DNA from: a virus
IMG/VR virus record: IMGVR_UViG_3300043570_000557
Span: 1 to 33,277 of that record
Length of the DNA: 33,277 nt
Direction: 5' to 3' (one strand)
Part shown: positions 6,969-32,111 of the stretch, piece by piece
How the letters are laid out: every line of letters begins with the position of its first letter
How positions within the stretch are numbered: position 1 is the first letter of the stretch
Translations under genes and position numbers: made by a program
Notes under the pieces: model-generated
Database searches by the model: none
What the model was told of the DNA's origin: nothing
What the model saw: only the letters and a program-made list of their open reading frames with translations

Positions 6969-7313
6969 ATGATAGAACTAAATTTACCTTATCCACCGTC
7001 AGTGAACACCTATTGGGGGTTCCGTGGATCAAGACGGTTTTTAACTAAGACCGCTAATGACTTTAAACTAATAGTTAATCTTGCCAGCAAAAGGGCTAGA
7101 TTCGGTGCTGATAAAGTAGGCATTGAAGTTATACTCCACGCGCCAGATCGCAGACGCAGAGACTTAGATAATTCCACCAAAAGTTTGGGTGATGCCCTAC
7201 AGCAAGCGGGAGTATTCGATGATGATTCTCAAATAGACGAATGGAAAATATCTCGCGGTAGCGTTATTAAGGGAGGTTGTTGCATAGTGCGAATTAGGTC
7301 TTTACAAGATTAG
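6969..7313 (+). CDS. rusA: RusA-type Holliday junction resolvase
   Basis: The 114 residues begin MIELNLPYPPSVNTYWGFRG, the typical RusA N-terminus. The catalytic part contains PDRRRRDLDNSTKSLGDALQ (59-78) and AGVFDDDSQID (80-90). The Asp residues (D65, D67 and one of D84-D86) and K71 match the known metal-binding acid/lysine set. RusA dimers cut four-way junctions symmetrically and resolve recombination or replication intermediates, fitting the divergent exonuclease/annealing operon. The start has AGGGAG immediately upstream, and it is the first gene of the rightward operon. Confidence 0.95.
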   Translation: MIELNLPYPPSVNTYWGFRGSRRFLTKTANDFKLIVNLASKRARFGADKVGIEVILHAPDRRRRDLDNSTKSLGDALQQAGVFDDDSQIDEWKISRGSVIKGGCCIVRIRSLQD

Positions 7314-7329
7314 TATTTATATATATTGT
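7301..7329 (+). promoter_or_regulatory. weak candidate promoter at the end of rusA
   Basis: TTTACA (7301-7306), a 17-base spacer and TATTGT (7324-7329) resemble a sigma70 promoter. It overlaps the rusA stop and would produce a leader RNA for the small ORF and the DUF1376 gene. Two mismatches in the -10 and the AT-rich setting keep confidence low. Confidence 0.35.
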
Positions 7330-7347
7330 ACTGCTATCGGGATTAGT

Positions 7348-7468
7348 AACCCCGACTTCAGAGAGGGAGTCAGTTATGCAATTCAGTATTTTTTTCGGTG
7401 AGATAAGGGCTTACAGCCTACCCCTTTCTATGGTTGTATGCCTGTCGGGTTACTACCGGCTCTCACCG
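7348..7468 (+). promoter_or_regulatory. structured leader upstream of the DUF1376 gene
   Basis: The transcript can form CGGTGAGA (7396-7403) pairing with TCTCACCG (7461-7468), enclosing AAGGG (7405-7409) with CCCTT (7422-7426). A third pairing, AACCCCGAC (7348-7356) with GTCGGGTT (7444-7451), would cross the first as a pseudoknot or act as an alternative fold. The long stem ends three bases before the AAGGA ribosome binding site of the DUF1376 gene. Together with an ORF inside it, this resembles translational or attenuation control, but no known riboswitch class is recognised. Confidence 0.5.
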
Positions 7469-7471
7469 TAA
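7376..7471 (+). CDS. 31-residue leader ORF upstream of DUF1376
   Basis: An ATG at 7376 has GGGAG six bases upstream and the frame ends at TAA 7469-7471. The peptide starts MQFSIFFGEIRAYSLPLSMV and is moderately hydrophobic. The coding sequence overlaps the structured leader, so ribosome movement through it would melt the long stem, which is the logic of a leader peptide. It could also be a true small protein or chance; the ribosome binding site is the main evidence. Confidence 0.4.
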   Translation: MQFSIFFGEIRAYSLPLSMVVCLSGYYRLSP

Positions 7472-7482
7472 AGGATATTGAT

Positions 7483-8238
7483 ATGCACTATTATAAATTT
7501 AACATTGCAGACTATCGGAAGGATACGGCTCATTTAACTCCGATCGAGCATTACATTTATCGCAGCTTAATAGATTGGTACTATCTGGACGAGTTGCCAA
7601 TACCGAAAGAAACCGAGTCGGTTATTCGTCGCTTATCACTCGATAACCACTCGCTTGGGTTATTGCAAAATGTGCTACATGACTTCTTTAAACTCTCCGA
7701 AACTGGGTACATCCATAAACGCATCGACATAGAAATTGCCGAATATCACGGCATGATTAAGGCAAATACTGCGAATGGGAAGAAAGGTGGCAGACCTGCA
7801 AAGCCAACAACCAAGCGGGATAAAACCGAGTCGGTTAAATCCGTTAACCGAAACGAAAGCGAAATTAACCCTAACTATAAACCACTAACCATAAACCAAG
7901 AACCATTAACCACTATAGAGAGTCTGCGCGGTTCGCGCCTAAATATTCCCCAAATTCATGATGAATGGGTGAACTGGGCGATACTAGAAAGACCAGAACT
8001 CACCGCCTCTAAAGTAAATTCTATCTACGAGCAATTCTATGATTACTGGAAGGCTCAACCGGGAAGCAAAGGAATTAAGTTAGATTGGTTTGCTACTTGG
8101 CGTAATTGGGTAAGGCGTGACAAGTCGTTTACTAGGGTAGAAAGGCTGTCTATTGCAGAACAGAATCGAGCAGTAGTGGACGCTTTCAATTTGAAATTGG
8201 ACCAACAAGAGGAGGGGGCTATATATGAACACGAGTGA
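7483..8238 (+). CDS. DUF1376 phage replication-region protein
   Basis: ATG at 7483 is preferred because the conserved DUF1376 N-terminus (MHYYKFNIADYRKDTAHLTP, then EHYIYRSLIDWYYLDELPIP) starts exactly there with AAGGA upstream; an earlier in-frame ATG at 7438 lies in the leader. The domain covers about residues 1-90, including ESVIRRL. A charged linker follows (GKKGGRPAKPTTKRDK at about 105-120). A C-terminal part (about 150-235; WVNWAILERP, FYDYWKAQPG, WFATWRNWVRR) resembles a DNA-binding tail of phage replication proteins. Genes of this type sit beside helicase loaders and are thought to act in replication initiation. It overlaps the next gene by 14 bases. Confidence 0.82.
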   Translation: MHYYKFNIADYRKDTAHLTPIEHYIYRSLIDWYYLDELPIPKETESVIRRLSLDNHSLGLLQNVLHDFFKLSETGYIHKRIDIEIAEYHGMIKANTANGKKGGRPAKPTTKRDKTESVKSVNRNESEINPNYKPLTINQEPLTTIESLRGSRLNIPQIHDEWVNWAILERPELTASKVNSIYEQFYDYWKAQPGSKGIKLDWFATWRNWVRRDKSFTRVERLSIAEQNRAVVDAFNLKLDQQEEGAIYEHE

Positions 8239-8788
8239 GAAAAAGGAATTTAATAACCTGCTTATCGGTACTTTTGAAGTCTACGGAACGAAACTAACGC
8301 CAGCTTCAATAATGATCTGGGCGAACTCGATGGATAAGTATTCGTTTTCTGATCTTAAAAATGCTCTTTCATACCATATTCAAAGTTCTCCTTTCGCTCC
8401 AAAGCCTTCAGATCTGATTCATATCATACAAGCCCAAGACGGTAGACCTTCTGCCGATGAAGCGTGGGGCATGATTCCACGCAATGAAAGCGTCAGTGCT
8501 ATCCTGTCCCAAGAAATGCTAACCGCTATGGCAGCAGCGCAGCCGTTGCTTAACGAGGGCGATCAGGTGGCAGCTAGAATGGCTTTTAAAGAATCCTATT
8601 CGAATCTGGTCAATTCTGCCCGCCAGACTTCTCGACCTGTCGAGTGGTTCCCTTCGCTTGGGAATGATAAGTACGGTAGGGAAGCAGTCGTTAAAGAAGC
8701 TATTAGACTTGGTAGAATTTCAGAGACACACGGCAAAAAGCTACTGCCTCAGATCACGAACTGGACTGAATTAATGAGGCTGTCATGA
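8225..8788 (+). CDS. putative helicase-loader-like replication protein
   Basis: The 187 residues start MNTSEKKEFNNLLIGTFEVY. Residues 18-72 (LTPASIMIWANSMDKYSFSD, ALSYHIQSSPFAPKPSDLIH) resemble the small helical domain of phage helicase loaders such as the G39P N-terminal domain, where a Trp-x-x-x-L-x-x-ysf pattern precedes a Pro-rich ADI-like motif. The C-terminal half is helical (ALLNEGDQ-like and NDKYGREAVVKEAIRLGRIS). No ATPase motifs are present, so it is not a DnaC-type ATPase. Position after the DUF1376 gene and a strong GGAGG support a replication role. The assignment rests on pattern and context only. Confidence 0.5.
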   Translation: MNTSEKKEFNNLLIGTFEVYGTKLTPASIMIWANSMDKYSFSDLKNALSYHIQSSPFAPKPSDLIHIIQAQDGRPSADEAWGMIPRNESVSAILSQEMLTAMAAAQPLLNEGDQVAARMAFKESYSNLVNSARQTSRPVEWFPSLGNDKYGREAVVKEAIRLGRISETHGKKLLPQITNWTELMRLS

Positions 8789-31328: not shown

Positions 31329-32111
31329 TTATTTAAGACGTTGATTTAATGCCTTCAGTAATTCCCGCTCTTTTAGGGCTTTAAGAATTTCGTCGGCTTG
31401 CTTTGTTGCCACCGCATCAGGCTCCCCCTGAGTTGGTTGAGTGTCAAGATTTTTATGGGTGGCTTCCCGCGCATCCACTATTTTCTTGAATACCATAGAT
31501 GCGGTGGTCGCATCTTTTCGCGTTAACCCTGCTTCCCGCAGAGTCTTTTCGATTACTCGAATCATTAGCTGTCCTTCAGCATTAAATGCTTCCAGCTTAC
31601 TGATTTCTGAATTAGGATTGTTAGGGTACATTACGACAGAGACTTCCCGCAGACCGCCTTTAGTAATTCTAAAGTATCCGTCAGCCTCTTGTGATGGATT
31701 TCCTTCTGCGTCAACCATAATGGCTTCATCAGCGTATGCGCCGACAGAAACGCCACCGAACATATTGGGAGATTCTTTTAATACAGAATGAAGATCAGAG
31801 CCGCCTACAGTATTCATGTAGATCTGCCCTTTAGCGGTCATACCTTCTTCATCAAAGATAAACTCGTTCCACTGACCGACAGGCATACCGCTGTCGTTAT
31901 GGTTTAAGAACATAGGTAGCGGCTTTTCCATTTTGTGAAAATTTTCAGCCCATTGAGCAAAGCCTTCGGGCTGATAGTTAAATCGCCTGCCGTCTAGTCC
32001 TTCTCTCGCACCCCAAGTAGTAGCACGAGCCTCTATGTTGCCTCGATTACTGCTTGACTCGCTTTCGTCTAGGCTTAGTTTCGCTTCGCAAACCAGCATC
32101 AGATTTTTCAT
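31329..32111 (-). CDS. prohead protease (HK97 U35 type)
   Basis: ATG at 32111 gives 260 residues starting MKNLMLVCEAKLSLDESESS; an in-frame GTG at 32123 is less likely. The protease domain has FLNHND with H71, GGVSVGAYA with S122, and DGYFRITKGGLREVSVVMYP, giving the His/Ser core of U35 proteases. The C-terminal 70 residues are charged and helical (LKALKERELLKALNQRLK), suitable for capsid-scaffold contact. The enzyme cleaves capsid delta domains during maturation. It is directly upstream of the capsid gene, as in HK97, and its start overlaps a small gene. Confidence 0.93.
   Translation of the reverse strand: MKNLMLVCEAKLSLDESESSSNRGNIEARATTWGAREGLDGRRFNYQPEGFAQWAENFHKMEKPLPMFLNHNDSGMPVGQWNEFIFDEEGMTAKGQIYMNTVGGSDLHSVLKESPNMFGGVSVGAYADEAIMVDAEGNPSQEADGYFRITKGGLREVSVVMYPNNPNSEISKLEAFNAEGQLMIRVIEKTLREAGLTRKDATTASMVFKKIVDAREATHKNLDTQPTQGEPDAVATKQADEILKALKERELLKALNQRLK

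Follow-up and report, generated by a model that had tools for sequence, protein, structure and literature searches.

A covarying leader RNA as a probable translational switch for a phage replication initiator

We report a structured 5'-leader RNA, about 150 nt long, that precedes a phage replication initiator gene and, judging from comparison of its relatives and from computed folds, probably acts as a translational switch for that gene, opened by translation of a short ORF within the leader; we put the probability of this reading at roughly 70%. The window, that is, the whole stretch of DNA that was analyzed, is a 33,277-base virus record (IMG/VR record IMGVR_UViG_3300043570_000557, positions 1-33,277), the portal protein of which is 67% identical to the portal of Methylophilaceae phage P19250A. 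The leader lies between rusA (6969-7313) and a DUF1376 gene (7483-8238, plus strand) that starts at the ATG at 7483 and encodes a 251-aa replication protein matching Pfam PF07120 (E 6e-22) and, in PHROGs, primosomal / replication initiation protein. The next gene of the operon (8225-8788, plus strand), which overlaps the DUF1376 gene, has a weak helicase-loader match (phrog_2289, E 2e-6). Elsewhere in the window, a single minus-strand ORF (1579-2826) combines a ParB-like domain with a following DNA methyltransferase domain, and another minus-strand gene (717-1196) matches PHROG 858, "starvation-inducible transcriptional regulator" (Dps-like).

The leader RNA (7337-7482, plus strand) is made up of five elements, namely a 5'-terminal hairpin (H1), a Shine-Dalgarno sequence (SD1) followed by a 31-codon ORF, a long stem (gamma) that buries the Shine-Dalgarno sequence of the DUF1376 gene (SD2), an inner hairpin (H3) with a loop that can pair with that of H1, and a further loop whose sequence complements SD1. 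H1 (7337-7355) consists of 5 bp (TCGGG/CCCGA) capped by a loop, ATTAGTAAC, that is 9 nt long in all leaders. Part of this loop, TAGTAAC at 7344-7350, forms the 5' strand of a long-range pairing, alpha, with GTTACTA at 7449-7455, which is the 7-nt loop of H3 (7444-7460, GUCGG-GUUACUA-CCGGC). SD1 (AGAGAGGGAG, 7360-7369), the ribosome binding site of the leader ORF as judged from its sequence and from relatives, contains the 5' strand (7360-7367) of another long-range pairing, beta; the 3' strand, or anti-SD1 (CCCUUUCU, 7422-7429), lies in the loop region inside gamma. The leader ORF (7376-7471) encodes MQFSIFFGEIRAYSLPLSMVVCLSGYYRLSP and ends in a UAA stop that abuts SD2 (AAAGGA, 7470-7475). The gamma 5' arm (7383-7403) pairs with the SD2 region through its lower part (7383-7394), its upper part (7396-7403) being CGGTGAGA, and the 3' arm (7461-7481) holds SD2. 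A small hairpin, h2a (7407-7419, GGGCU-UAC-AGCCU), completes the structure, and its closing pair covaries (U-A/G-C).

This architecture bears out much of the original prediction, which had been made from the sequence of the window and had described a long inverted repeat ending just before the ribosome binding site, here AAAGGA upstream of the ATG at 7483, a 31-codon ORF with its own Shine-Dalgarno running through that repeat, and a third pairing that would form a pseudoknot or an alternative fold. The third pairing exists as alpha, which covariation identifies as a kissing contact between the loops of H1 and H3. An extended 12-bp duplex between the two hairpins was rejected, and kissing is preferred, because conservation does not reach past the loops. 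The fourth pairing, beta, was absent from the prediction. The inverted repeat itself, CGGTGAGA (7396-7403) with TCTCACCG (7461-7468), is the top of a longer imperfect repeat of 27 nt (7377-7403/7461-7487) that is 78% complementary. The RNA of 7335-7482 folds at -55.8 kcal/mol, compared with -37.6 +/- 3.4 for shuffled sequences (z -5.3; none of 200 shuffles as good), while the opposite strand of the leader folds at a z of only -1.9. A local hairpin around SD1 in the window's fold (GACUUC/GGAGUC) was discarded, as it is not conserved in one relative (L004). A 13-mer of the leader, GTATGCCTGTCGG (7436-7448), recurs on the minus strand at 31876-31888, inside a late gene, probably by chance (about 0.2 occurrences expected).

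Searching IMG/VR for DUF1376 relatives and with three DNA patterns yielded 16 distinct leaders of the window's type. A covariance model added one diverged leader (L118, identical to L208; 85.7 bits), and the gapped pattern recovered L193 and seven similar leaders, which form another subtype, eight other matches to this pattern (L194, L196, L197, L199, L200, L204, L206, and L209) being chance hits without a leader. Altogether, IMG/VR contigs supply about 20 distinct relatives, none of which has lost an element of the leader. Searches of cultured phages, plasmids, and bacterial genomes, the first two by blastn, did not find the leader; the single bacterial-genome match (L192, Anaerostipes) was a chance match in unrelated sequence, and 72,556 plasmids gave no blastn match to the leader at E 1. 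Methylophilaceae phage P19250A, the closest relative in culture, lacks the leader, which is therefore not essential for such phages.

The original prediction had proposed a covariation analysis across homologous leaders, and compensatory changes prove to be abundant. Because a MAFFT alignment (A1) misplaces SD1 in one subgroup, where beta is only 63% paired, the elements were registered without gaps. In 14 distinct cores treated in this way, a registration that uses knowledge of the pairing and for which L118 and L193, outside the building set, provide a check, 93.9% of 700 pair cells form, and 19 of the 50 pairs show double-sided changes, a result equaled by none of 500 shuffles. When the partner strand is slid by one to three columns, pairing drops to 44-50%, and zero to three pairs show such changes. 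The H1 and H3 stems are 100% paired, H1 with double-sided changes in three of its five pairs; beta is 97% paired (five of eight pairs changed on both sides), with energies of -9.2 to -12.0 kcal/mol in all cognate pairs; and alpha has double-sided changes in five of seven pairs. The gamma 5' arm is 95% paired, with double-sided changes in four pairs, and since some of the lower gamma stem was prescribed by the patterns used for retrieval, the constancy of that stem partly reflects how the sequences were selected, the remainder having been free to vary.

Comparison across the more distant subtypes establishes the same pairings. In L118/L208 and L193, which were found after the structure had been drawn, the upper gamma stem, H1, H3, SD1, and the loops are all rewritten, and alpha (ACGA/UCGU and AUUGAC/GUCAAU, respectively) and beta (CACGGAG/CUCCGUG and AGGAACG/CGUUCCU) are intact. 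Alpha covaries across nine mutually complementary loop pairs, the summed cognate energy of these nine loop types being equaled by only 2 of 362,880 permutations, the true one included. Against the proposed switch, alpha shrinks to 4 bp in one group (L028/L042/L095), with energies as weak as -1.5 kcal/mol. For the six SD1 types, the cognate set of beta pairings is equaled by 1 of 720 permutations, the true one included.

As for the leader ORF, all 20 leaders keep its frame open from the ATG onward, and 37 of 40 alternative frames close well before the end. Its stop falls between -11 and +4 of the next AUG in all 20, which, being related, represent fewer than 20 independent cases. In lineages that have undergone a 1-nt deletion or no longer have the UAA, the stop is a UGA or UAA at -1, or an AUGA overlap. 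A frameshift at a run of seven U residues was considered and dropped, as the -1 frame stops at once. The peptides differ between subtypes (MQFSIFFGEIRAYSL... versus MTFNFQYFFTSGVGN...), so it is probably the translation of the leader ORF, rather than its product, that is under selection.

The original prediction left the type of control as translational or attenuation. The translational part is well supported by sequence comparison: the computed probability that SD2 is unpaired is 0.01 in the folded RNA and rises to 0.74 when the gamma 5' arm is occupied by a ribosome, and the leader stop adjoins the initiator start in 20 of 20 leaders. The attenuation part is not supported for this leader, because the stem is followed by AAAGGAUAUUGAUAUG, which lacks a terminator U-run, and no intrinsic terminator was found before the DUF1376 gene. 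We infer the direction of control as follows. In the folded RNA, gamma would bury SD2. The leader ORF crosses the gamma 5' arm and stops beside SD2, and a ribosome translating it would unzip gamma, thereby exposing SD2 or placing the ribosome for initiator translation, which would proceed through coupling or re-initiation. The output would depend on how much the leader is translated, not on the peptide. The leader ORF itself appears to be gated, since SD1 pairs with the loop inside gamma to form beta, and alpha may clamp this closed form. As beta is a pseudoknot outside the nested model, the nested fold leaves SD1 only half occluded, and the gating of SD1 therefore rests on covariation rather than on computed accessibility. 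The anti-SD1 is transcribed about 60 nt after SD1, so early ribosomes on nascent RNA may escape the clamp. Candidate signals that could shift the balance are the folding time of the nascent RNA, a trans-acting RNA, or a protein.

The transcript probably starts near the base of H1, from a sigma70-like promoter (TTTACA-17 nt-TATTGT, 7301-7329, plus strand) that is the best plus-strand site in the window, scores above shuffles, and has its -35 element in the 3' end of rusA. In 11 of 12 leaders, the -10 element ends 55-62 nt before AGTAT.

The leader behaves as a portable module. It stands ahead of DUF1376 genes whose products mostly share only 25-50% identity with one another. In L096 and L188, it precedes replication initiation proteins that do not match DUF1376, separated from them by a 61-aa ORF or an HNH gene; in L208, it is followed by a GIY-YIG gene and then by another primosomal-type protein. 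The genes further downstream resemble those of the window. Among otherwise syntenic contigs (L084, L090, L096, L099, L104, L188, and L208), the initiator is exchanged like a cassette and the leader stays; five kinds of DUF1376 start occur behind it, along with two initiators that do not match DUF1376, and the intervening genes are of the HNH, GIY-YIG, or 61-aa kind. Within this module, sequence comparison of close pairs indicates that the two kissing loops diverge faster than the rest of the leader. They hold seven of the eight differences between the window and L059, although they make up 16 of 107 positions (P 3e-6), as well as 7 of 10 differences between the window and L004 and seven of nine between L028 and L095.

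This divergence raises the tentative possibility of a specificity module, in which a trans-acting RNA, either antisense to H1 or the leader of another phage, would recognize the kissing loops, and the loops would diversify so that co-infecting phages avoid mutual shut-off, as do plasmid incompatibility loops. This is compatible with the translational switch. Besides the concentration of differences in the loops and the nine mutually complementary loop pairs, it would fit the comparison of L095 with L100, in which the whole leader is 88.9% identical and the flanks are 97.4% and 99.0% identical, the changes including SD1 and the anti-SD1 as well; the coexistence of different loop types in one metagenome sample (L082 and L086 in 3300043409; L083 and L091 in 3300044984); and the decisive role of RNAI top-loop changes in the compatibility of IncK1 with IncK2 plasmids (PMC10724649). 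However, no trans-acting partner was found when 12 leaders were scanned for an antisense promoter, as no minus-strand site scored above shuffles, a search that a non-sigma70 promoter or a distant gene would escape. Nor did cmsearch find a second copy of the module in the window, where it returned the leader, its reverse-strand echo, and one chance-level match, and the swapping of whole leader blocks between lineages could give the same pattern. An unlikely extension is a phage "incompatibility" module, in which RNA of co-infecting or resident phages would recognize the loops in trans, phages with the same loop would limit each other's initiator, and new types would escape; if true, phages would possess an RNA-based form of exclusion that acts on replication and is carried as an exchangeable cassette before different initiator genes. 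A different role for alpha is possible, if somewhat doubtful. Gamma would again be the OFF element, and alpha would be the ON element, keeping the initiator's ribosome binding site accessible once leader translation has opened the stem, as the repZ pseudoknot does in ColIb-P9. The parts are those of repY/repZ (a 5' hairpin loop, a leader ORF, an SD-burying stem, and a loop complement near the initiator SD), and in I-complex plasmids the leader peptide gene, which RNAI inhibits, must be translated for repA expression (PMC10286972). Yet the partner of alpha sits in a hairpin loop of its own, H3, exposed even with gamma closed, so alpha need not wait for unfolding, and a closed clamp is suggested by beta, which covers SD1.

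Three other explanations fare far worse. That the leader peptide stalls a ribosome on an amino acid or a drug, in the style of ermC or SecM, and so exposes SD2 would suit a short conserved ORF across an SD-masking stem, but we consider it very unlikely given that the peptides differ between subtypes, that shared residues track paired RNA, that no codon run is present, and that three different stop arrangements occur. An RNA thermometer or ligand riboswitch with an incidental ORF is highly improbable: SD2 does pair with a U-rich strand, as in fourU-type thermometers, but the leader is very stable (-55.8 kcal/mol), the ORF and its stop position are kept in every lineage, and no Rfam class matches. 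Least probable of all is a feature acting at the DNA level, in which a repressor or the initiator would bind TAGTAACC and GGTTACTA as inverted sites of an operator or origin; H1 and H3 are indeed inverted DNA copies that vary between phages as operators do, but such sites would not account for the covarying pairs of gamma, beta, h2a, and the H1 stem, for loop lengths that hardly vary, or for the strand bias of folding.

Two other leader types occur before DUF1376 genes. The unrelated class B, with 31 distinct sequences just upstream of DUF1376 (L013:2896-3003, L016, L020, L041, L049, L153, and others), comprises P1 (CGGC/GCCG), a conserved GGCUA, a freely covarying hairpin P2, a conserved GAAAA, P3, and a pseudoknot, CUCCC/GGGAG (also AAUUCCC/GGGAAUU and CGUUAC/GUAACG), around a conserved UUUCUUU. 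No leader ORF was seen in it, and six scanned sources (L008, L013, L019, L041, L049, and L012) gave no Rfam match. Class B has the look of an independent, new RNA family that might bind a ligand or a protein. Class C, found about 100 nt before the DUF1376 start in L039, L047, L054, L056, L060, L064, and L065, has a long hairpin (GGCUUCAC...GUGAAGCC) that ends in a terminator-like UUUUU directly before the gene, and an upstream TTGGAAG complementary to an inner CTTCCAA, a pairing that covaries (TTGGTAG/CTACCAA in L060; GGTGG/CCACC in L039). This arrangement suggests transcription attenuation of the DUF1376 gene.

The phage leader was compared with IncI-alpha (ColIb-P9) repY/repZ, I-complex repB/repA (IncB/O, IncK, and IncZ), and IncL/M repA. 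It resembles these IncI and I-complex systems in that the leader ORF stop lies next to the initiator start (20 of 20 leaders, with coupling a prediction here), the initiator SD is sequestered in a stem that leader translation opens (a computed result here), and a 5' hairpin loop pairs with a downstream element (here alpha); in the plasmids, loop changes define specificity. It differs in being carried by a phage, in showing no blastn similarity to the plasmids, in having the loop partner in a separate hairpin (kissing), in the masking of its own SD by the inner loop, in that no antisense promoter was found, and in its DUF1376/O-like initiator, which is not RepZ. With IncFII (R1) tap/repA and its CopA/CopT pair, it shares the dependence of initiator expression on translation of a leader peptide ORF just upstream, again as a prediction for the phage, but no CopA counterpart was detected, and the leader has two long-range pairings of its own. 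Mechanistic details of repY/repZ and tap/repA beyond the cited papers are general knowledge. Phage P1 offers another example of RNA control, C4/icd/ant, where a gene is coupled to a small ORF upstream of it, but the target of C4, an antisense RNA that works in trans, is an antirepressor gene, and the leader described here has no Rfam C4 match. REx-C control modules of Pseudomonas plasmids (RepA-PFP and RepJ), which are exchanged among non-homologous rep genes, are likewise portable regions with stem-loops, in some cases with a leader peptide gene, and have one hypervariable loop while the stems are identical (PMC5304414); however, they are plasmid-borne and encode a putative antisense RNA, and we saw no sequence shared with the phage leader. 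The best reading by analogy is that the leader would do in a phage what leader-peptide control of replication does in plasmids (IncI repY/repZ and IncFII tap/repA); with no sequence homology and no antisense promoter found, it is not shown to be a member of the plasmid systems.

The leader is not described in the literature searched, most subscription papers lying outside that search. Within the scope of Rfam 15, the prediction that none of the known riboswitch classes fits is upheld, as neither the window nor any of 19 other sources, which included leaders of the window's and other types, gave a family a score at its gathering threshold, and the sole sub-threshold match at permissive thresholds was a lncRNA (13.8 bits against a threshold of 55). 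The leader would define a new, strongly covarying family of structured RNAs, and it would exemplify, in tailed phages, the leader-peptide control logic of plasmid replication initiators. It would link plasmid copy-number control with phage replication control, and it shows a control RNA that travels as a cassette before interchangeable initiators. Finally, the fast co-variation of the kissing loops would make RNA specificity (exclusion) groups among phages directly testable.
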